Assembly: GCA_009841475.1 (NCBI GenBank)
Contig: VXLT01000361.1
Span: 1 to 37,395 of the forward strand
Origin: Gemmatimonadota bacterium
GTDB taxonomy: Bacteria > Gemmatimonadota > Gemmatimonadetes > Longimicrobiales > Gaopeijiaceae
Direction: 5' to 3'
DNA: 37,395 bases
The notes below the pieces were generated by a model. That model ran no database searches. It saw only the letters and a list, made by a program, of their open reading frames with translations, and was not told the DNA's origin. Shown piece by piece: positions 27,788 to 37,395 of the stretch. Position 1 is the stretch's first letter. Each line of letters begins with the position of its first letter. A program made the position numbers and the translations under genes.

Positions 27788-28516
27788 CTACAACTTCCCG
27801 AAGAGGTCCAGGAGCCTGAGCTTCCAGACGCGCCACACGGCCTCCACAATGATGCTTCTGGACATCTTCGATTCGCCGGTGTCCCTCTCCGTGAAGACGA
27901 TGGGCACCTCGCACAGGGTGTACCCTGCCCGCCACGCCCGCAGCTTGAGTTCGATCTGGAAGCTGTAGCCGTTGGACTCGATCTTCTCGAGCCCGACCGA
28001 CTCGATGACCTCGCGGCGGAAGGCGTTGAAGCCTCCGGTGGCATCGTTCACGGGAATCCGCGTGATGGCGCGCGCGTACCAGGAGCCGAAGAGGCTGATC
28101 AGGAGGCGGCTCATCGGCCAGTTCACCACCGCGATGCGGCCACCGGCGTAGCGGGACCCGACAGCCACGTCCGCGTCTTCCAGCGCGGACACGAGTCCGG
28201 GCAGCCTGTCGGGAGGATGGGACAGGTCCGCGTCCATCTCGATGAGGATGTCGAACTCCCCCTCCAGGCCCCGGCGGAACCCGGCCACGTACGCGGCCCC
28301 GAGGCCGAGCTTTCCGGGCCGGTGGAGCACTTCCACCCGGTCGTTCTCGGCCGCGAGCCGGTCCGCCAGCCTCCCGGTCCCATCCGGCGAGTTGTCGTCG
28401 ACCACCAGCACGTGGAAGGCGTCCCCCTGCCCCAGGATCAGCGGCACGATGCGCGGCAGGTTCTCCGCCTCGTTGTAGGTGGGGACGATCACCAGGACGC
28501 GGAGGGGGGAGGTCAT
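27788..28516 (-). CDS. polyprenyl-phosphate glycosyltransferase (DPM1/polyprenol-phosphate mannose synthase type)
   Basis: 242 residues, a GT2 family enzyme without C-terminal membrane helices. VIVPTYNEAENLPRIV opens the fold, VVDDNSPDGTG and EMDADLSHPPDRLP carry the nucleotide and metal-binding Asp residues, and NDATGGFNAFRREVIE and GYSFQIELKLRAWRAGY are DPM1-type blocks. Such enzymes move a sugar from a nucleotide donor to polyprenyl phosphate on the cytoplasmic side. The start overlaps the stop of the upstream membrane/methyltransferase gene by 4 bp (ATGA). Mannose is the commonest sugar of the family but is not proven here. Confidence 0.92.
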   Translation of the reverse strand: MTSPLRVLVIVPTYNEAENLPRIVPLILGQGDAFHVLVVDDNSPDGTGRLADRLAAENDRVEVLHRPGKLGLGAAYVAGFRRGLEGEFDILIEMDADLSHPPDRLPGLVSALEDADVAVGSRYAGGRIAVVNWPMSRLLISLFGSWYARAITRIPVNDATGGFNAFRREVIESVGLEKIESNGYSFQIELKLRAWRAGYTLCEVPIVFTERDTGESKMSRSIIVEAVWRVWKLRLLDLFGKL

Positions 28517-30216
28517 GGGGCCTCCGGTTTCACGGCGAGGACGGCGATCCTCCGCCTCAGCAGAGGCACCCACCGTTGCAGGAGCCGCTCCGCGAAGACG
28601 AGGCCCGGCACATGTGATTCGGCGAAATACGCCCGCTCGATCTCGAAGCCGGCGTCGTCGAGGAGCTGTTTCATTCGCGTCATCGACTTGTAGTCCACAT
28701 GGCTCGGGTCGCGCTGGAGGACGACATTGTTGTTCTTCAACACCTCGAGGATGTGGGAGCGGCACGGGGTCCACACCGCAAAGCGTCCACCGGGCTTGAG
28801 CACCCGGAATGCCTCCCTTGCGACCTCCTCGGAGTCCTCCGGATACAGGTGTTCGAAGAGGTCTGCCGCTACGATCGAATCGAATGAAGCGGAAGGGAGG
28901 TGGGTGGCCCGGGCGTCCGCACAGACGAAGGATACATTGTCAAGATCCAGTTGCCCCGCGCGCGCGCTGCAACCGGCAACCGCTCGTTCGGAGAAGTCGA
29001 GGCCGACCACTTCGCCGACCTTGGGTCCCAGGGCAACGCTGATCGTCCCCCACCCGCAACCCAGGTCAAGCACGCGGTTCCCCGGGTCGGGCCTGTGGAG
29101 TTCCAGCACCTTCCCGACCCGGTAGCGCTGGAAGCGGCTGTTGAAATCCTGCATGCGCGTACCGTCGGCAAAGTAGGCCGATTCGTCGTAGTACTCCTTG
29201 CCGATCCGCACCGGGCCGTCCTTCGCCCCGGCCGAGCCGGATCCGCGAAGCAGCCATGCGCCCCCGGCGGCGGCAGCCAGCTCGGTCACCGTGATCCAGA
29301 CGCGCTGCAGCGCGGCCAGCACGACGCTCGGGCCGGGTCCCAGCAGCGGCGTCAGCAGGAAGACGAGCGAGCCTTCGCGAACCCCGATCCCCGCCGGGAG
29401 GAACGAGATGTAGCCGGCGAAATAGGCGGCGGCGAAGGCGGTTGTCGCGAACACCACCGGTACCGGCAGTCCCAGGCCGGCCGCCAGGCTGGCAAACGCG
29501 GCACCGAAGACGAGCCAGTTCAGCATGTATCCCGGCACCAGCAGCAAGAGGCGCCGGCCGGCATCCCCGGGCAGTTCACCGGAGTGGCCCACCCGCTTCA
29601 GGATCCACCGGAGCAGGACTTCCGCCCCGCCAAGGTAGAGGAACGCACCCAGTGCCAGCACTGCGCCAAAGCCCACCGCAAGCCCCGCGGCCCCGCTGGA
29701 GTCGTTCATCTGGTAGGCGACCCATCCCCCGAGGATCGCGGCGCCGATCAGGTTGAGGATCTGGGCAACGATCGCGGCACCGGTGGCGCGCACCCCGGAC
29801 ATCCCCGCACGCCGCGCGAGGACGGCCAGCCCGGCGACCTGGACCACCTTGCCCGGCACGTATCGGCCCAGGTTGGCGACCAGCAGCATCGCGGTCCCCT
29901 GCACCACCGGCACGGGTTTCTCGCCGAAGGCCACCAGCACCCTCGACCACAGGGCGGCAGGGATCACGAACACCACAAGGAGCAGCGCCGCCGAGAGCAC
30001 CAGGAAGGGCACGTTCAGCCGCACGACACTCCATTCTACCATCTCCCAGGCCTCTGCCAGGGTCAACTCCGCACCGCGCAGTATCAGCCACGTGATCGCT
30101 ATGGCCAGCACCAGCTTCAGGGGCAGCATCCACCAGCGCCGGCTGGCGCGATCGGTTGCGCCGTCCTGCTTCAAATCGGGGTTGGCGGCGCCCTCCTCCC
30201 CGGGGCTCGGCGTCAT
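28513..30216 (-). CDS. LPG-synthase-type membrane domain fused to SAM methyltransferase
   Basis: 567 residues from the ATG at 30216, which overlaps the stop of the YfhO-like gene by 4 bp. Residues ~30-330 are a polytopic domain of the lysylphosphatidylglycerol-synthase/YbhN/AglD type (ANLGRYVPGKVVQVAGLAVL, YFAGYISFLPAGIGVREGSL). Several relatives are suspected flippases or lipid-handling proteins. Residues ~345-567 are a class I methyltransferase with motif I VLDLGCGWG at 382-390, ADLFEHL and RVLKPGGRFAVWTP. The two parts are normally separate proteins. No frameshift is needed for the fusion. A role in moving and methylating a lipid-linked sugar is inferred from the neighbours. Confidence 0.88.
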   Translation of the reverse strand: MTPSPGEEGAANPDLKQDGATDRASRRWWMLPLKLVLAIAITWLILRGAELTLAEAWEMVEWSVVRLNVPFLVLSAALLLVVFVIPAALWSRVLVAFGEKPVPVVQGTAMLLVANLGRYVPGKVVQVAGLAVLARRAGMSGVRATGAAIVAQILNLIGAAILGGWVAYQMNDSSGAAGLAVGFGAVLALGAFLYLGGAEVLLRWILKRVGHSGELPGDAGRRLLLLVPGYMLNWLVFGAAFASLAAGLGLPVPVVFATTAFAAAYFAGYISFLPAGIGVREGSLVFLLTPLLGPGPSVVLAALQRVWITVTELAAAAGGAWLLRGSGSAGAKDGPVRIGKEYYDESAYFADGTRMQDFNSRFQRYRVGKVLELHRPDPGNRVLDLGCGWGTISVALGPKVGEVVGLDFSERAVAGCSARAGQLDLDNVSFVCADARATHLPSASFDSIVAADLFEHLYPEDSEEVAREAFRVLKPGGRFAVWTPCRSHILEVLKNNNVVLQRDPSHVDYKSMTRMKQLLDDAGFEIERAYFAESHVPGLVFAERLLQRWVPLLRRRIAVLAVKPEAP

Positions 30217-32678
30217 GCCGCCGCGTCCTGGCGCCGCAAACGCCCTGCCAGACCGCGCATGTACGGGGAGGCGAGCAGCACCAGCACAACCACCGCCGCC
30301 CCTATGCTGATCCAGAGCGCCTGCCGCACCGTAGGGGCCGTGAAGCGCATTGTCACCGTGTGCTCCCCGGCTTCCGGGATCCGCACGGCCTGCAGAGTCA
30401 GGTTGGCCCGGTGGACATCGGCGGGCTCGCCGTTGATCTCGGCCACCCACCCGGGAAACCAGTTCTCCGAGATGACCAGCAGCGCGGGGCCGGTTGTACT
30501 CACCCTCAGCTCACGCTGGTCCGGCTCGTAGCTCACCCACTCGACCGCGCCGGAGCCCCCGCCCCCCACGGCCTCGGGGAGCGGCGCGGCCAGGATCGCC
30601 TCGCGCCCGGGGTCAAAGTCGCTCGACAGAATGCGCACGAGAGTGGCCTCGTCGTCCTCCACGACGCTGACCTCCCCGGCGATCCAGGCCCGTTCGAGAC
30701 CGTCGTACGCGTAGACCGTTTCGGCGCCGTAGGGACCCTGGCCGGTACTCTGCGCCGGCGGGCCCCCGTCCGCGGGAGCGCCCGAAAGGACCAAATACCG
30801 GACGTTCATCATGCGGAGCACGTTGGGGTGCGTGGTGTTGGCCCCGCGGGACTGGCTCCCCTCGAGGCCCAGCAGCATGCGGTAGCGGGCCAGGTCGTTC
30901 GGGTGATGTCCCGCGAGGATGTCGAGGCCGTGCATGGCGAGGTCGACGCTCTGTTCGTTGCGGAAATCGCGACGGAAGTCGGCGACCCGGAATGGGGTTT
31001 CCGCCGTGAGGCGCTCCTGCAGGAAGCGCACGTTGGCGGTCGGGGCCGCCCACTCGTGGAAATCCACCGTGCGGATGAAGGCGCGGTCGATGCGGCCGAG
31101 GTCCACGGCGACGAGGACGGCGAGGGCGGCCAGGGCGGCCGTGTGCGAAATCTTCCCTTCGCGCGCCGCCCAGGTTGCCGTGACGGTGAGGCCGGCGAGG
31201 AGCAGCGCGAAGGCGAAGCCGCGGGTGATGAAGGGCAGCGCGCGGGCCAGGGCGGCCTGCTGGGCCTCCGCCATGCCGGTATGGATGCTGGTGGTCCAGA
31301 TGCCGGTGAGCGCCCCGCTCCCCTGCAGCAGCAGCCCCAGAAGCAGGAGTCCCAGGAATCCCAGGAGCGCCCGCCCCCGCCTGCTTTTCAGGAACCGCCC
31401 CGGCTTCGGCGATTCCCGCACCAGGTCCTCGACCCCGAGCGTGAAAAGCGTCACGACCCCGAAGCTCACCAGAAAGGCCGCGATCGCCGGAACGCGGAAG
31501 AGCGACATCCCGGGCACGACCTCGTAGAAGATCCGCCAGACCGGCGTGTGCGCCCCAAGCGCGTAGAGGAGCCATGCGAGACTCAGTCCGGCCATGAACC
31601 ACCGGAGCGGCCGTCTCCGGTGCCCCAGGAGCCCGAAGAGGGCCAGGACCAGCACCGTGATGCCCAGGTACTCATGGTTGAGCTTGAGCGCGTTCCTGCC
31701 CCAGTAGGTGCCCTGCCCCCAGCTCGCGTCAGCACCCGTGTTGCCCACGAATTCGGGGACCGCCAGGGCCAGAACCTCCTCCGGGTGGAAGGACCAGGAG
31801 GTCGCGTAGGCGATTCTCTGTTCGGTCGTCGCGTCCACCGTGGTCGCCACGCGGCGCGAGTACTCCCCGACGTACCCGGCGGCGGGCACGAGCTGCCACG
31901 CGGTGAGCGCCCCCCCGAGGAGCGAGCTGCCCAGGAAGACGCCCATGACCAGTGTCGCCCGGGAGAGGCGGCGCTTTCGGCCGGCGGCCTCCCCCGCCCT
32001 CCACATCAGTACGGTGCGGAAGATCGCGTACACGCCCACGGACCCGAAAAGGAAGTAGCTCGTCTGGAACTGCGTGGTCAGGATGGTCAGCGCCACCGCG
32101 CCCGCGAGCCCCGCCGCCGTTCGTCCAGAGGGGCCGCGGAGGAGTGACTCGGTGGCCCAGAAGACCAGCGGCGTCAGCGACGCGACCATGAGCTTCCCGT
32201 CGTTGCCCCCGAGCGTCAGCGTGACCATCACCGGCGCCATCAGCCACGCCAGCCCTCCGAGGGTCGCGGCCGGGCGTCCGAGCCCCAGGGCCCGCGCCCA
32301 CCCGTACATGAAGAAGCCCCCGGCGATCACATGCAGCACCAGCTTCCATCCCAGGACGCGGTAGGTGTCGGTCAGGAAGTAGAGGAGGCTCGTGGGGTAG
32401 ATGAAGTCCCCCCCCGAAATCGCCTCGATCATGGGGACGCCTCCGAGCAGCCTCGGTGCCCAGAGCGGGAAGTCGCCGGTGGTGAGTCGCTCGGCCAGGA
32501 ACGCGCGCCCCATGTAGCCCAGTGCTTCCGTGTCGGCGCCGTACAGCATCAGGTTGGAGAAGATGAACTCGCCGTAGAGGATGATGGTAGCAAGCAAGAA
32601 GACCCCGGCGGTCAGCCACCGCGGCACTCGGAGCGCGTTTCCGCCCGGCTGACCGGAACTGCCTGGATGGCGCATCAT
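30213..32678 (-). CDS. YfhO-family GT-C-like membrane protein
   Basis: 821 residues with about a dozen membrane segments, a large extracytoplasmic region (~500-780) and a final helix before a basic tail. Recognisable blocks are DTEALGYMGRAFLAERLTTG, DFPLWAPRLLGGVPMIEAIS and GMSLFRVPAIAAFLVSFGVV. YfhO proteins act with a CsbB-like polyprenyl-phosphate glycosyltransferase to add sugars to cell-surface polymers. The ATG at 32678 is followed by a second ATG and lacks a strong RBS; a longer N-terminus is open but looks non-coding. It is the first gene of the overlapping trio. Confidence 0.88.
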   Translation of the reverse strand: MMRHPGSSGQPGGNALRVPRWLTAGVFLLATIILYGEFIFSNLMLYGADTEALGYMGRAFLAERLTTGDFPLWAPRLLGGVPMIEAISGGDFIYPTSLLYFLTDTYRVLGWKLVLHVIAGGFFMYGWARALGLGRPAATLGGLAWLMAPVMVTLTLGGNDGKLMVASLTPLVFWATESLLRGPSGRTAAGLAGAVALTILTTQFQTSYFLFGSVGVYAIFRTVLMWRAGEAAGRKRRLSRATLVMGVFLGSSLLGGALTAWQLVPAAGYVGEYSRRVATTVDATTEQRIAYATSWSFHPEEVLALAVPEFVGNTGADASWGQGTYWGRNALKLNHEYLGITVLVLALFGLLGHRRRPLRWFMAGLSLAWLLYALGAHTPVWRIFYEVVPGMSLFRVPAIAAFLVSFGVVTLFTLGVEDLVRESPKPGRFLKSRRGRALLGFLGLLLLGLLLQGSGALTGIWTTSIHTGMAEAQQAALARALPFITRGFAFALLLAGLTVTATWAAREGKISHTAALAALAVLVAVDLGRIDRAFIRTVDFHEWAAPTANVRFLQERLTAETPFRVADFRRDFRNEQSVDLAMHGLDILAGHHPNDLARYRMLLGLEGSQSRGANTTHPNVLRMMNVRYLVLSGAPADGGPPAQSTGQGPYGAETVYAYDGLERAWIAGEVSVVEDDEATLVRILSSDFDPGREAILAAPLPEAVGGGGSGAVEWVSYEPDQRELRVSTTGPALLVISENWFPGWVAEINGEPADVHRANLTLQAVRIPEAGEHTVTMRFTAPTVRQALWISIGAAVVVLVLLASPYMRGLAGRLRRQDAAA

Positions 32679-32945: not shown

Positions 32946-33389
32946 ATGACCCCCAAGTTGCAGGTCAAAGACCTCAGGACGTCCAGGCTTACCGTGGACG
33001 AGGCGTCGATGCGAGCGTTCGCGGAACTGTCGGGAGACACGAATCCGATCCACGTCGACGGAGACAGCGCGCGCAGTGCCGGCTTTCCCAGGCGGGTGGC
33101 ATACGCCGGTCTTCTCCTCGCAGAGGTCAGTCGGCTCATCGGAACCCGCATTCCGGGGCCCGGATCGCTCTGTGTCTCGTACCAGTTCGACTTCAAGGCT
33201 CCCGTGCTCGTAGGTGAATCGGTCCTGTTCGAAGTCACTGTCACCCACTACTCGGAGGCGGCGCGCGTGGCGCTCCTCCGGTTCGTCGTCTGCCGGGAGC
33301 ACGATCAGGAGATCGCGATGGAGGGCTCGGCGACGGTCCGTGTTCCGGTCAACGAGGGGTGCGGGCGTCACTTGGCCGCCGACGGCTGA
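32946..33389 (+). CDS. MaoC-like hotdog-fold hydratase/dehydratase
   Basis: 147 residues, a single hotdog domain. The hydratase motif D31-x-N33-P-I-H36 (SGDTNPIHVD) holds the catalytic Asp and His, and FPRRVAYAGLLLAEVSRLIG covers the following helix. MaoC enzymes hydrate or dehydrate acyl-thioesters on CoA or ACP. The gene is 9 bp upstream of the FkbH-like gene and in the same transcript as an ACP, so an ACP-bound substrate is likely. The ATG at 32946 gives the normal domain start; the open frame further upstream is not supported. No strong RBS is seen. Confidence 0.85.
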   Translation: MTPKLQVKDLRTSRLTVDEASMRAFAELSGDTNPIHVDGDSARSAGFPRRVAYAGLLLAEVSRLIGTRIPGPGSLCVSYQFDFKAPVLVGESVLFEVTVTHYSEAARVALLRFVVCREHDQEIAMEGSATVRVPVNEGCGRHLAADG

Positions 33390-33398
33390 AAGAGCACG

Positions 33399-35243
33399 AT
33401 GGCCACTTCGGAACGGGTGACGGTCGCGCAGGCCGGGAATTGGAGCGAGCGCTTGCGCAGGGTTGCCGCGAAGCTCGCCTCCGCCCCTTCCCATGCGAAC
33501 GCACTCGAGGCCTACCATGCCGGCCTGGAGGCACCGGCAACGGTGGAGGGGTTCGTCTCCCTGAATTGCGGCATCCTGCGAAATGTAACGGTGGAGCCGT
33601 GGCTGCCGGAATTGTATGGCGCCCTCCTCCGGTGCGGCATCCACACGAGGTTCCTGCTCGGCGACTACGCGGTATACGAGCGCTACGCGTCCGCTCCCTC
33701 TGACCTGGGGACTCCCGCGCCGGATTGTTTCCTGGTCTGCCTGGACGCCGGGGCCCTGGCGGGCGACGCGCGCCACGATCCTCCTGCGGACATGGCGGAC
33801 GCGCTGCTGGGACGCATCACGGGGATCGTGGGCGGCCTGGTCGACCGCACCAGCGCGAACATCGTCGTCACCAACCTCGCACCGGATCCGCAACCGGTTC
33901 ACTCCCTTCATGGCGACCAGGATACCGCGGGTTGGCCACACCTTCGCAGGACGGTGAACGCAGGGCTGACAGCCGTCCTGTCCGCGGAACCCCGGGTATC
34001 GATTCTGGACATGGACCGGATCGTTGGGGAGTTCGGGGCTTCCCGCGCGTACGACACGCGAATGTACATGATCGCGGCCAGCCCCTTCGCGGTCGACTTC
34101 CTGCCGCACCTGGGGCGGGCGTTTGCCGCGGCGGTCGCGGCAGCCGTCCTGCCACCGAAGAAGTGTGTGGTCGTCGACTGCGACAATACCCTGTGGGGAG
34201 GCATCCTGGGTGAAGACGGACCGGAAAGAGTTGCGATCGGGACGGATTATCCCGGGTCCGCGTACCGAGAGTTTCAGCTCTTCCTGGTCGGGCTCTTCCG
34301 CAGGGGATTCCTGCTGGCCATGAACAGCAAGAACAACGAGGCCGACGTGCTGTCGTTCATGGAGGACTGTCCGGAGATGGTCCTGCGGCCCGCCGACTTC
34401 GCGGCCCGCCGGATCAACTGGGAGGACAAGGCTGCCAACCTGACGGAGCTCGCCCGGGAGCTGAACATCGGGCTCGATTCGATGATCTTCATCGACGACA
34501 GCCCTTTCGAGTGTGAACTCGTGAAGTCGGCGCTGCCGGAGGTTCAGGTGGAGCAGTTCCCCGCCAATCCCCTTGATATCCCGAGGTATGTGTCCGCGAT
34601 CCAGGGAGTCGAACGGCTCAGCGTCGGGAAGGACGACCTTGCCCGCACAGAGTCCATCCGCGCCAACGCGAGCCGCGAGAGGCTCAGGAGGGGGGCCCCG
34701 GATCTGGACTCTTTCCTGCGCAGCCTTTCGATCAGGTTAACGATCGCCCGGCAGGACCGGACCGCGGTGCGCCGGATCAGCGAGCTCTGCCAGCGCACCA
34801 ACCAGTTCAACCTGACGACCAAACGATACGGGGTGGGCGACATCGAGCGACTGATGGACGAGGGCGTTGTCTATACCATGAGCATGAAGGACCGTTTTGC
34901 GGACTACGGAACGATCGGCGTCGCCATCGTCGACACGGGCTCCGGGGATCGCTGGGAGATCGACTCCTTCATGCTGAGTTGCCGGGCGTTCGGGCGAAGG
35001 GTTGAAGTGGAATTGCTTCAGGCGCTGCTGGAGGACGCCGGGACGGCGGGCGTGCGGTCGGTCGGGGCCTGCCATGTTGCCACCGCAAAGAACGGAATGA
35101 CGCGCAACTTCTTCCCTGATTACGGGTTCGCAGAGACGGAGGCGTCGGACGGCGAGGCCAGGTTCGAGATCCAGATCGGCGCGGCCGCCGGGCGTCGACC
35201 GGATGGTATCTGCGAGGTGCGGCGAGTGGAGTCTCCAACATGA
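33399..35243 (+). CDS. FkbH-like HAD-family glyceryl-ACP synthase type enzyme
   Basis: 614 residues. An N-terminal ~240-residue domain with SGNH-like character precedes a HAD-IIIC domain: D260-C-D262-N-T-L-W-G-G, MNSKNNEADV and MIFIDDSPFEC. The C-terminal part (FNLTTKRYGVGDIERLMDEG, then DSFMLSCRAFGRRVE) is the GNAT-like region of FkbH proteins. Characterised members take a glyceryl unit from 1,3-bisphosphoglycerate and load it on an ACP thiol. The stop overlaps the ACP start (ATGA), which fits that partnership. No polyketide synthase is nearby, so the glyceryl-ACP would serve something other than classical polyketide assembly. Confidence 0.9.
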   Translation: MATSERVTVAQAGNWSERLRRVAAKLASAPSHANALEAYHAGLEAPATVEGFVSLNCGILRNVTVEPWLPELYGALLRCGIHTRFLLGDYAVYERYASAPSDLGTPAPDCFLVCLDAGALAGDARHDPPADMADALLGRITGIVGGLVDRTSANIVVTNLAPDPQPVHSLHGDQDTAGWPHLRRTVNAGLTAVLSAEPRVSILDMDRIVGEFGASRAYDTRMYMIAASPFAVDFLPHLGRAFAAAVAAAVLPPKKCVVVDCDNTLWGGILGEDGPERVAIGTDYPGSAYREFQLFLVGLFRRGFLLAMNSKNNEADVLSFMEDCPEMVLRPADFAARRINWEDKAANLTELARELNIGLDSMIFIDDSPFECELVKSALPEVQVEQFPANPLDIPRYVSAIQGVERLSVGKDDLARTESIRANASRERLRRGAPDLDSFLRSLSIRLTIARQDRTAVRRISELCQRTNQFNLTTKRYGVGDIERLMDEGVVYTMSMKDRFADYGTIGVAIVDTGSGDRWEIDSFMLSCRAFGRRVEVELLQALLEDAGTAGVRSVGACHVATAKNGMTRNFFPDYGFAETEASDGEARFEIQIGAAAGRRPDGICEVRRVESPT

Positions 35244-35473
35244 TCGAGAACACGGAAGCGACTCTCGAGAGGATCTTTCGGAGTGTGCTCAAGGTGCAGC
35301 CGGATGAGGACATGGTTTCGGTGTCGGTCGAGTCGCATGGCTGGGACTCGGTCGCCCACCTGAATCTGATCCTTGCAGTGGAACAGGAGTTCCAGTTCAT
35401 GATGACGCCGGAGGAGGCGTCGGCAGCGAACTCCTTCCGGACGATGCTGGATCTGGTGAACAGCCGGCGATGA
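35240..35473 (+). CDS. acyl carrier protein
   Basis: 77 residues with the helical layout of ACPs. The phosphopantetheine attachment site is S37 in HGWDSVAHLNLI. Its 4-bp overlap with the FkbH-like gene implies that the two work as a pair. The sequence is unlike housekeeping AcpP (which has D-S-L-D) and so is a specialised carrier. It probably holds the glyceryl or related acyl group for the hydratase and a transferase. A phosphopantetheinyl transferase is not in the window. Confidence 0.92.
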   Translation: MIENTEATLERIFRSVLKVQPDEDMVSVSVESHGWDSVAHLNLILAVEQEFQFMMTPEEASAANSFRTMLDLVNSRR

Positions 35474-35477
35474 GAAG

Positions 35478-36371
35478 GTGAGTACCGGGCGCGGCCGCGG
35501 CGTATTCGCACTCCGCTTCGATGTGGATTCGGTAACCTGCCTCGAGCGCGGGATACCCGCCCTGCTGAGGCTGGGTGAGCGCCACGGCGTACGGTTCACC
35601 TTCTTCGTGAACATGGGCCGCAGCTTCAGCTGGCGTCACACGGTCGCCCGTACGCTCAGGTCGAGGCGCGCCGGTGCGACGGGCGAAGACGTCGGCACCC
35701 CGCGCGCTAACAAGTTGCCGGCGGGGGCGAAGCTCGGACGGGGAGGCGTGCTGAAGACCGTGCTGATGAATCCGCGGCTGGGCTGGCGCTATCGCCCAAC
35801 CCTCGATCGCCTCTTTGAAGAGGGACACGAACTGGGGCTGCACGGGGGCTCCAATCACGCCACCTGGCAGTACGCCCTCGATGAACTCGGGGAAGATGGC
35901 CTGAAGAGGCACGTCCGCCCGTCCTTCGCGGCCTTCAGGGATCGATACGGGCAGCCGAGCGGCTTCGCCAGCCCGGGATTTCGCTACAACGAGGCGGTGC
36001 TGGACCTCATGGACCACGAAGGCTTCGAGTACGCCTCGGACATGGACGGGGAGCGGCCCTTCCGGCCTCCCCGTCCCGGCAGGGGGCGCCGTTACAGGCA
36101 CTTCCAGGTCCCGGTCAACGTGATCGGAGAGGACAGTGTTCCCATGATCGAGCAGGGTCTGGCCCTTGGGCGGTCGGATGCCCGCATTGTGCGGGATTCG
36201 GTGGAACGCATCCGCGAGCGCCGGTTTGCGCTGATGTACGGACATCCATACGTCGAGGGCGTGCAGTGGCGCCTTCTCGACGCCATTCTCACGGAGCTGT
36301 CGGGCGACTACGAAACTGTTACCGTCGCCGAGTACCTGAGACTCTGGAAGGAGACGGCAGGCCATGGGTAA
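35478..36371 (+). CDS. ArnD-like polysaccharide deacetylase family protein
   Basis: 297 residues from a GTG start 4 nt after the ACP gene. The NodB-type fold opens with FALRFDVDSVTC, where D15 and D17 are the expected catalytic/metal Asp pair, and continues with HELGLHGGSNHATWQ (metal His) and GFASPGFRYNE. Blocks such as LKTVLMNPRLGWRY resemble ArnD, which removes a formyl group from an undecaprenyl-phosphate-linked aminosugar. A lipid-linked or glycan N-acyl sugar is a reasonable substrate. It overlaps the next gene by 8 bp. Confidence 0.85.
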   Translation: MSTGRGRGVFALRFDVDSVTCLERGIPALLRLGERHGVRFTFFVNMGRSFSWRHTVARTLRSRRAGATGEDVGTPRANKLPAGAKLGRGGVLKTVLMNPRLGWRYRPTLDRLFEEGHELGLHGGSNHATWQYALDELGEDGLKRHVRPSFAAFRDRYGQPSGFASPGFRYNEAVLDLMDHEGFEYASDMDGERPFRPPRPGRGRRYRHFQVPVNVIGEDSVPMIEQGLALGRSDARIVRDSVERIRERRFALMYGHPYVEGVQWRLLDAILTELSGDYETVTVAEYLRLWKETAGHG

Positions 36372-36825
36372 GGTCATTCGGTACCTGGCTTCCATGCTCC
36401 CGATCGGCCAGGGATTGCGTGCGTGTCTTTACGGTGTGAGCGGGCTCCGGGTCGGAGCGCTGACGATCATCGATCGGAATGTGCAAGTTACCCGGCCCGA
36501 CATGGTAACGATCGGCTCGCGCGTCACGATCTGCAACGCGGTTTCGATACTGGGGGAAGTCACGGCCGTAAACTCCAGGTTGGAGGAAGCCTACAGCCTG
36601 CGGAAGACGGAACCGGTCGTGATCGAGGACGATGCCTACATCGGCGTCAAGGCGACCATCCTGCCGGGGGTCCGGATTGGCCGGATGGCCACGGTCGGGG
36701 CGAATACCCTGGTGATCGCCGATGTGCCGGACTACGGTGTCGTGCTGGGCGTTCCGGGACGGGTTATGATGATTCGTCCCCACGAGGAGGATGCAGCTGC
36801 CGAGGGTGGCGGCGGTGGTTCATGA
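36364..36825 (+). CDS. hexapeptide-repeat (LbH) acyltransferase
   Basis: 153 residues. Left-handed beta-helix repeats of the [IVL]-G-x4 type are seen (VTIGSRVTICNAV, VVIEDDAYIGVKATILPGV, RIGRMATVGANTLVIADVPD), ending in the typical GVPGRVM. The catalytic His usual in maltose/virginiamycin-type acetyltransferases is not obvious. The family mostly moves acetyl from acetyl-CoA to sugars or aminosugars; here an ACP-bound donor is also possible. The C-terminus ends in a Glu/Gly-rich tail. It is the last gene of the MaoC-FkbH-ACP set. Confidence 0.82.
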   Translation: MGKVIRYLASMLPIGQGLRACLYGVSGLRVGALTIIDRNVQVTRPDMVTIGSRVTICNAVSILGEVTAVNSRLEEAYSLRKTEPVVIEDDAYIGVKATILPGVRIGRMATVGANTLVIADVPDYGVVLGVPGRVMMIRPHEEDAAAEGGGGGS

Positions 36826-36887
36826 ACACGGCAGGAAGACAAATGCGTGATCCGGATCGAGAGTTGGGTCGAATGGAGTCGACGGAT

Positions 36888-37395
36888 ATGGCCAACCATG
36901 CAAGGAGTCAGGAACTGCCGCTTCGGACCTGTCCATACGCTGTTGCGGCTGTGGTTTTGGCCACGGCGTGCATTTCAACAGGGCCAGACGAGCAAGTGAC
37001 GGAACGGGACGTGCTCGTCGCGCTGTACGAGAGCACCGGCGGTTCCGATTGGCTACGCAGCGATGGGTGGCTGTCGGACGCCGAGCTGGGCAGCTGGTAC
37101 GGCGTGGATACCAACAGCCAGGGGCACGTCACGCGCATCGTGCTCAACGGGAACAACCTTGTTGGTTCAATCCCGTCCGAGCTTGGCGTGCTGGAACACC
37201 TCAGCCGCTTGAGCCTTCAGCGCAACGGACTCACTGGCGAGATTCCCCCGGAGTTGGGACGACTGGCGACAATCGATACACTGGACGTCTACGTCAATGG
37301 GTTGAGCGGTGCGATTCCGCGGGAGCTATTGGGACTTGAGGAGGTCTCGCTGCTGCTTCTTGGCTTCAACCAGCTCTCAGGCCCTATTCCGCCGG
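36888..37395 (+). CDS. leucine-rich-repeat lipoprotein, 3' truncated by window end
   Basis: The frame is open through the end of the window. The ATG at 36888 has GGAG 9 nt upstream and gives a sensible signal peptide ending in A-T-A-C. In-frame ATGs at 36822 (overlapping the previous stop as ATGA) and 36843 (AGGAAG upstream) are alternatives. After ALYESTGGSDWLRSDGW, a cap seen in bacterial plant-type LRR proteins, come 24-residue repeats with the N-x-L-x-G-x-I-P pattern (NNLVGSIPSELG, NGLTGEIPPELG, NGLSGAIPRELL, NQLSGPIPP). It is probably a surface protein-binding lipoprotein. Confidence 0.85.
   Translation, partial: MANHARSQELPLRTCPYAVAAVVLATACISTGPDEQVTERDVLVALYESTGGSDWLRSDGWLSDAELGSWYGVDTNSQGHVTRIVLNGNNLVGSIPSELGVLEHLSRLSLQRNGLTGEIPPELGRLATIDTLDVYVNGLSGAIPRELLGLEEVSLLLLGFNQLSGPIPP

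Follow-up and report, generated by a model that had tools for sequence, protein, structure and literature searches.

What would a glyceryl-loading enzyme and its carrier protein, a pair best known from polyketide clusters, do among genes for a surface glycan? The question is raised by one end of contig VXLT01000361.1 (assembly GCA_009841475.1, positions 1 to 37,395, forward strand), from a Gemmatimonadota bacterium of the Gaopeijiaceae; this whole stretch of 37,395 nt is hereafter called the window. Five tightly spaced genes of the + strand, the cassette, encode a MaoC-like (R)-hydratase/dehydratase (32946..33389, Pfam PF01575, 3.6e-16), an FkbH-type HAD-IIIC/GNAT glyceryl transferase-phosphatase with an N-terminal FkbH_N domain (33399..35243), a stand-alone, dedicated acyl carrier protein (ACP; 35240..35473, PF00550, PP-binding, 6e-6), an ArnD-like deacetylase of NodB fold starting at GTG (35478..36371, Polysacc_deac_1, 1.5e-5; best NCBIfam model ArnD, 3.2e-17) and a left-handed beta-helix hexapeptide acyltransferase-like protein (LbH; 36364..36825, PF00132 Hexapep, 1e-7). 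The coordinates of the open reading frames (ORFs) and the Pfam and NCBIfam domains bear out the compact arrangement described in a first-pass annotation of this DNA: FkbH and ACP overlap by 4 nt (ATGA), deacetylase and LbH by 8 nt, and the remaining gaps are 9 and 4 nt. The answer we favour, with moderate confidence, is that the cassette forms an accessory module for N-acylation: a polyprenyl-phosphate-linked sugar would be deacetylated and then receive a glyceroyl group, possibly O-methylated, from the ACP.

The first line of evidence is the place that the cassette occupies. It is divergent from a trio of the − strand, made of a YfhO-family GT-C glycosyltransferase (30213..32627, PF09586), a flippase-like LPG_synthase_TM protein that forms an in-frame fusion with an S-adenosylmethionine (SAM) methyltransferase (28513..30216, −, PF03706 4.6e-20 and PF13649 4.2e-23), and a GT2 polyprenyl-phosphate glycosyltransferase of the AglJ/ArnC/PpgS-like kind (27788..28516, −, PF00535 9.6e-32), for which the best NCBIfam models, AglJ, ArnC and PpgS, all score below cut-off. 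Relatives, which are metagenome-assembled genomes, were compared within the genus (n=23) and within the family (n=121). YfhO is a core gene, present in all 23 genus genomes and in 111 of the 121 of the family. The flippase-methyltransferase fusion recurs at loci L026, L027 and L028, and the two are separate genes in L089/L090, L046 and L049. FkbH was found in 10 of the 23 genus genomes, and gene calling on the fetched loci put the cassette beside YfhO each time. The order in these relatives is YfhO / MaoC-FkbH-ACP-deacetylase-LbH / (LRR, a leucine-rich repeat gene) / MTase24 (other strand) / GT4 / UDP-GlcNAc 2-epimerase / GT2 / RpoN / LptB, the exceptions being G010, which has a rearranged trio, and loci whose contig ends early. 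In most of the 13 cassette-free genus genomes GT4 directly abuts YfhO. Forty loci were also sampled across the other genera of the family, and 32 of these have the two genes adjacent on one strand with nothing between them. We conclude that the cassette is an inverted insertion into an ancestral LptB–RpoN–GT–YfhO–flippase locus that is otherwise closed.

Several properties of this site can be added. The GC content at third codon positions (GC3) is 0.75-0.82 in the cassette and 0.85-0.93 in the trio, a difference that fits acquisition without proving it, and three label changes are needed on the YfhO tree to account for cassette presence. Upstream of LptB, the genes resemble LptA/LptC, KdsD, KdsC and KdsA, as judged from N-termini read from the sequence; because the ancestral locus thus lies among lpt and kds-like genes, the outer glycan is plausibly related to lipopolysaccharide (LPS). 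Three-component CsbB/GtcA/YfhO glycosylation systems are known (PMC5836110, PMC7389260) and share with the trio a contiguous set of GT2, membrane flippase-like protein and YfhO. They differ in that the putative flippase is here an LPG_synthase_TM protein, in some genomes fused to a methyltransferase, rather than GtcA, and in that the context is one of Lpt genes. At the insertion site, two cassette-free genomes (G006 and G009) have an unfused copy of the methyltransferase that in the window is joined to the flippase-like protein. A second, divergent cassette (FkbH 64% identity) was seen on the 5.1-kb contig L029 of G005, an assembly with 6% contamination, so that it may be foreign.

Is the cassette more than a neighbour of the trio? 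The LbH profile matched exactly 12 of the 121 family genomes, FkbH of the cassette type occurs in the same 12, and the deacetylase profile matched these 12 and two distant ones; the remaining FkbH proteins of the family stand far apart from it and occur in other settings. A shared operon was directly observed in L069, a single-contig genome of another genus of the family: YfhO, ACP, deacetylase, LbH and LPG-TM follow each other on one strand, with overlaps of 4 nt (YfhO/ACP) and 8 nt (deacetylase/LbH), and FkbH converges on the operon. No other single observation speaks as strongly as this one, with the ACP and a putative transferase inside the operon of the trio, for an action of the cassette on the trio's glycan. 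A link to the trio had been put forward as a possibility at first pass and is now supported.

The nature of the acceptor is addressed by two genomes of another genus (G126 and G130), in which the same locus (L089:6691-8333, L090:2604-4207) is occupied by an inverted deacetylase homologue and by a protein of the Formyl_trans_N family, whose relatives are ArnA and amino-sugar formyltransferases, both inserted between the UDP-GlcNAc 2-epimerase and GT4-YfhO-LPGTM-GT2-methyltransferase. The deacetylase homologue is about 35% identical to that of the cassette and keeps H122, H127 and H256; the DVD motif is kept in the L089 protein, and the gene call for L090 lacks the N-terminus. If an N-acyl amino sugar is what is made at this locus, one would expect just this: acyl-transfer enzymes of two unrelated kinds, each accompanied by a deacetylase. 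Deacetylation followed by N-acylation, the sequence of events supposed in the first-pass annotation, thus gains support, and an amine acceptor is indicated by the replacement.

In the same glycan setting, LbH might instead O-acylate a hydroxyl, or only acetylate from acetyl-CoA, with FkbH and ACP serving a separate modification and deacetylase and LbH being mere neighbours. We consider this unlikely, even if relatives of LbH point that way: its PDB sequence relatives are mostly acetyl-CoA O-acetyltransferases, and the O-acetyltransferases VatA and XAT hold the top ranks among structural matches of its model (predicted local distance difference test (pLDDT) 75, poor in loop 66-71). The sugar N-acyltransferases QdtC, AntD and WlbB are also among these structural neighbours; fold searches assign families by fold only, and absence from a fold list was not used as evidence. 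The single phylogenetic profile common to FkbH, deacetylase and LbH argues against mere proximity, the formyltransferase and deacetylase found as a substitute argue against a hydroxyl acceptor, and LbH has no O-acyltransferase His. Indeed, its alignment (n=13) holds no invariant His, and the position of His115 of LacA is an invariant Thr67. His70 was considered as catalytic base and rejected, being Asn or Ser in 4 of the 13 copies, that of the window included. Some hexapeptide N-acyltransferases function without a catalytic His, and QdtC and WlbB are not known to have a conserved one, which LbH lacks as well. The likeness to QdtC, WlbB, AntD and Pcryo_0619 is one of fold (Z about 12-13), whereas LbH is shorter, has no recognised sugar-nucleotide domain and is proposed to use an ACP donor.

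By sequence and fold, ArnD is nearest to the cassette deacetylase, which would remove an acetyl group before N-acylation. ArnD 8t0j is its only PDB sequence relative (E 4.5e-9) and the top structural match of its AlphaFold2 (AF2) model (pLDDT 78; Z 22.4, root mean square deviation 2.6, 232 aligned residues). The next matches were 3QBU and 3RXZ, then, lower in the leading group, 1Z7A and 3S6O; these four are the structural neighbours given for ArnD in a review (PMC10967932). The score on the ArnD equivalog NF011923, 62.7 bits for a cut-off of 382, means that the protein is related to ArnD and is not an ArnD orthologue. Residues D15/D17, H122, H127 and H256 are conserved; D17, H122 and H127, candidates for the metal-binding Asp and two His, align to ArnD, but with a one-residue insertion (HxxxxH) in a low-confidence loop of the model. 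No obvious signal peptide was detected. Lipid-linked aminosugar systems offer a parallel: undecaprenyl-phosphate GalNAc is deacetylated by NaxD (PMC10927774), and ArnC/ArnD/ArnT, with NaxD, share with our locus an ArnC-type GT2, a deacylase that is ArnD-like in sequence and fold, a GT-C transferase and a neighbourhood of LPS genes. They differ in that the free amine, left cationic there, is proposed to be re-acylated here, and in that the GT-C enzyme is YfhO and not ArnT. In G022 the deacetylase gene (L028:12507-13395) is frameshifted near its end and continues in another frame, through either an assembly error or decay.

Which acyl group would be transferred? Glyceryl-ACP is the product of FkbH (PMC7489565), and the cassette FkbH, the only one of the source genome, scores 281.5 bits on TIGR01686 for a curated cut-off of 146.65. 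Its HAD motifs D260xD262 and D366-D367, S310-K311 and the C-terminal S527-C528-R529 are invariant among 15 aligned FkbH copies; in a separate alignment of the ACP, which carries a WDS(V/I)AHLNLI motif, the phosphopantetheine Ser37 is invariant too. A distant-homologue search (A6) gave matches almost confined to the same Gemmatimonadota, the single additional one being in a Deltaproteobacterium (33% over the FkbH core). Compared to the FkbH/ACP glyceryl-loading pairs of polyketide synthase (PKS) clusters, which make methoxymalonyl-ACP or tetronates (PMC7489565), the family, the catalytic motifs and the adjacent stand-alone ACP are alike, whereas the cassette lies beside glycan genes, its FkbH has a long N-terminal domain, and no dehydrogenases, FabH-like ketosynthase (KS) or PKS were recognised at its locus.

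The ACP could nevertheless serve a type I PKS encoded elsewhere in the genome, providing in trans a unit of glyceryl or methoxymalonyl type; FkbH/ACP pairs are classic PKS suppliers (PMC7489565). The remark made at first pass that no ketosynthase is present holds for the locus and not for the genome, where long KS-containing ORFs (type I PKS) lie on contigs C165, C139 and C9. No PKS or nonribosomal peptide synthetase (NRPS) gene, as judged by KS or C/A domains, was found around the cassette in the window. A polyketide or NRPS cluster just past position 37395, using this ACP, had been named at first pass as a finding that would contradict the supposed acyl transfer to a sugar; as the contig ends there, it was looked for in the relatives, which have instead MTase24, GT4, the epimerase, GT2b, RpoN and LptB. 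Among the cassette and insertion-site genes of the window and the relatives, no dehydrogenase of either kind expected for a methoxymalonyl-ACP (FkbG-K type) operon was recognised, nor any FabH-like ketosynthase of a tetronate glycerate operon among the genes adjoining the cassette. Moreover, PKS dehydratase domains occur in 22 of the 23 genus genomes, including 12 of the 13 without cassette, and in L069 the ACP shares an operon with YfhO. Service to a PKS, unsupported by the neighbours in relatives and by a PKS distribution that is independent of the cassette, is therefore very improbable.

A further alternative keeps the transfer to a sugar as in our favoured model and changes the acyl group: FkbH/ACP and MaoC would make another short hydroxyacyl, for instance lactyl or 3-hydroxyacyl. 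MaoC hydratases act on enoyl thioesters, and anthrose is an analogy for hydroxyacyl transfer to a sugar. The catalytic dyad of MaoC, D31/H36 (SGDTNPIH), is intact in the window and conserved wherever MaoC occurs; the nearest solved structure is 3-hydroxyacyl-thioester dehydratase 2, an R-enoyl-CoA hydratase, and AntD, a structural neighbour of LbH, attaches a hydroxyacyl to an amino sugar. In L074, a MaoC fused to an SDR-like domain stands beside another FkbH-ACP pair. Yet the active-site motifs of FkbH are all canonical, and the same core is found without MaoC in L032, L069 and L070, which makes a non-glyceryl group quite improbable. A decayed scrap of MaoC is all that is left in L030, and it was not seen in the short contig L029, which ends early. 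The five-gene cassette of the first-pass annotation is complete in the window, but its MaoC is dispensable, being absent or decayed in several relatives. A five-gene core was consequently rejected: with MaoC lost where the other cassette genes stay intact, the core is FkbH, ACP, deacetylase and LbH, usually with MTase24.

Next to the cassette, on the opposite strand, relatives encode the O-methyltransferase MTase24, a relative of the catechol/caffeoyl-CoA class. All 9 of the other cassette genomes of the genus have it, and none of the 13 cassette-free ones does. Such a split has a chance of 1 in about 497,000 if genomes are independent; they are related, so its real strength is less. We conclude that MTase24 belongs with the cassette set. 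A second methyltransferase, MTase11, accompanies the cassette in L031-L033. It fills the insertion site alone in the cassette-free genomes G021 and G012 (L052:5064-5915, L050:3193-4032), and was therefore rejected as an obligate member.

Put together, the favoured module would work as follows. The GT2 would place an N-acetylhexosamine (HexNAc) on polyprenyl phosphate, and the ArnD-like enzyme, given its fold and lack of an obvious signal peptide, would strip the N-acetyl on the cytoplasmic side. FkbH, with its family motifs intact, is expected to load glyceryl from 1,3-bisphosphoglycerate onto the dedicated ACP, where the acyl group may be edited by the neighbouring O-methyltransferase and, in genomes that have it, by MaoC. 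LbH would then move the acyl group to the free amine without a canonical catalytic His, as some sugar N-acyltransferases do, after which the LPG-TM protein would flip the lipid-linked sugar and YfhO transfer it to the outer glycan. What the sequences show directly is that the genes are intact, that they occur together, that they were inserted at the trio, that they share its operon in L069 and that a deacetylase with a formyltransferase takes their place in G126 and G130; the order of the steps, from GT2 to YfhO, we infer from protein families and synteny. The acyl group thus appears to be derived from glycerate and to replace acetyl on an exported surface sugar.

Glyceroyl or di-O-methylglyceroyl amides are found on bacterial amino sugars (PMC3068675, PMC10609480, PMC6120980). 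The O-antigen of Pragia fontium has an N-D-glyceroyl amino sugar (PMC10609480), and the pseudaminic acid (Pse) of Campylobacter jejuni flagellin carries a 2,3-di-O-methylglyceroyl amide, for which a putative deacylase is needed (PMC3068675). The latter case resembles ours in the proposed removal of N-acetyl, in an amino sugar that then bears N-(O-methyl)glyceroyl and in the expected methyltransferase; it differs in that the putative deacylase, Cj1295, is aminopeptidase-like and would have a nonulosonic acid as substrate, whereas the cassette has an ArnD-like enzyme beside a polyprenyl-phosphate sugar system. Literature searches that combined FkbH with O-antigen turned up no paper, nor was one for Cj1302 found.

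Six points weigh against this model. The substrate, product and chemistry of the cassette are predictions from its genes. MaoC is without a clear role in it. Non-glyceryl acyl groups can be loaded by some FkbH relatives. Every LbH copy is devoid of the canonical catalytic His of LacA-type enzymes. Compared to ArnD, the second metal His of the deacetylase is displaced by one residue, and the model has low confidence there. Finally, MTase24 and GT4 were searched for in the source assembly and neither was found; that both went undetected suggests an assembly gap beyond the cassette, which is the probable cause.

More broadly, the locus may house an exchangeable N-acyl 'cap' system, a view that we hold tentatively, at slightly less than even confidence: an ArnD-like deacetylase, combined with a swappable donor and transferase (FkbH-ACP-LbH for (O-methyl)glyceroyl, a formyltransferase for formyl), would edit a polyprenyl-linked HexNAc before transfer by YfhO, giving an enzyme set for N-glyceroylation. 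Comprising a single carrier protein and a single candidate transferase, it is a concrete, expressible and testable candidate set for amino-sugar N-glyceroylation, a surface decoration whose genes stay unidentified in other bacteria. If true, it would carry the FkbH/ACP chemistry known from polyketides over to envelope glycans; the locus also shows alternative acyl modules replacing each other at a single site.

A set that comes and goes in this way might also be a decaying remnant with no present function, as could be read from the frameshifted deacetylase of G022, the MaoC scrap of L030 and the MTase11 left alone at the site in G021/G012. In the window, however, all five cassette genes are free of internal stops, and their ratios of nonsynonymous to synonymous substitution rates (dN/dS, pairwise with relatives) are 0.07-0.36, which means that the five ORFs are genuine genes; LbH has the lowest ratio, i.e. 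the strongest purifying selection among them. Loss of function is therefore extremely improbable.

The transcript may extend past LbH, as the LbH stop codon overlaps the ATG of the LRR gene (36822..37395, +, PF00560 6e-9). This gene, a variable member present in 6 of 11 genus loci, is incomplete here, the contig end at 37395 falling inside it.

FkbH proteins were also found in other settings. Short ones of the same order have large multidomain genes clustered around them, of which the one tested is an NRPS. A tblastn search of plasmids led to named FkbH neighbourhoods of three types, PKS, MBOAT and sugar, and the deacetylase/LbH pair was absent from all six inspected. Long FkbH with ACP occurs in several non-PKS settings, so FkbH-ACP outside PKS is not new in itself. 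ACP-FkbH pairs stand beside MBOAT-like and SGNH-like genes on Sinorhizobium meliloti pSymB, on a Rhodobacteraceae plasmid and in two Gemmatimonadota (L083:4654-9689, L085:7017-12804, L036:9118-13773 and L076:5653-10327). Four family contigs (L077, L079, L080 and L081) have compact pairs of FkbH and an ACP-like gene, three of them with an extra GNAT-like gene. In surface-polysaccharide clusters (L071:280-3461, L072 and L082), FkbH-ACP is accompanied by a VOC protein (methylmalonyl-CoA-epimerase-like) and a PglD-like LbH.

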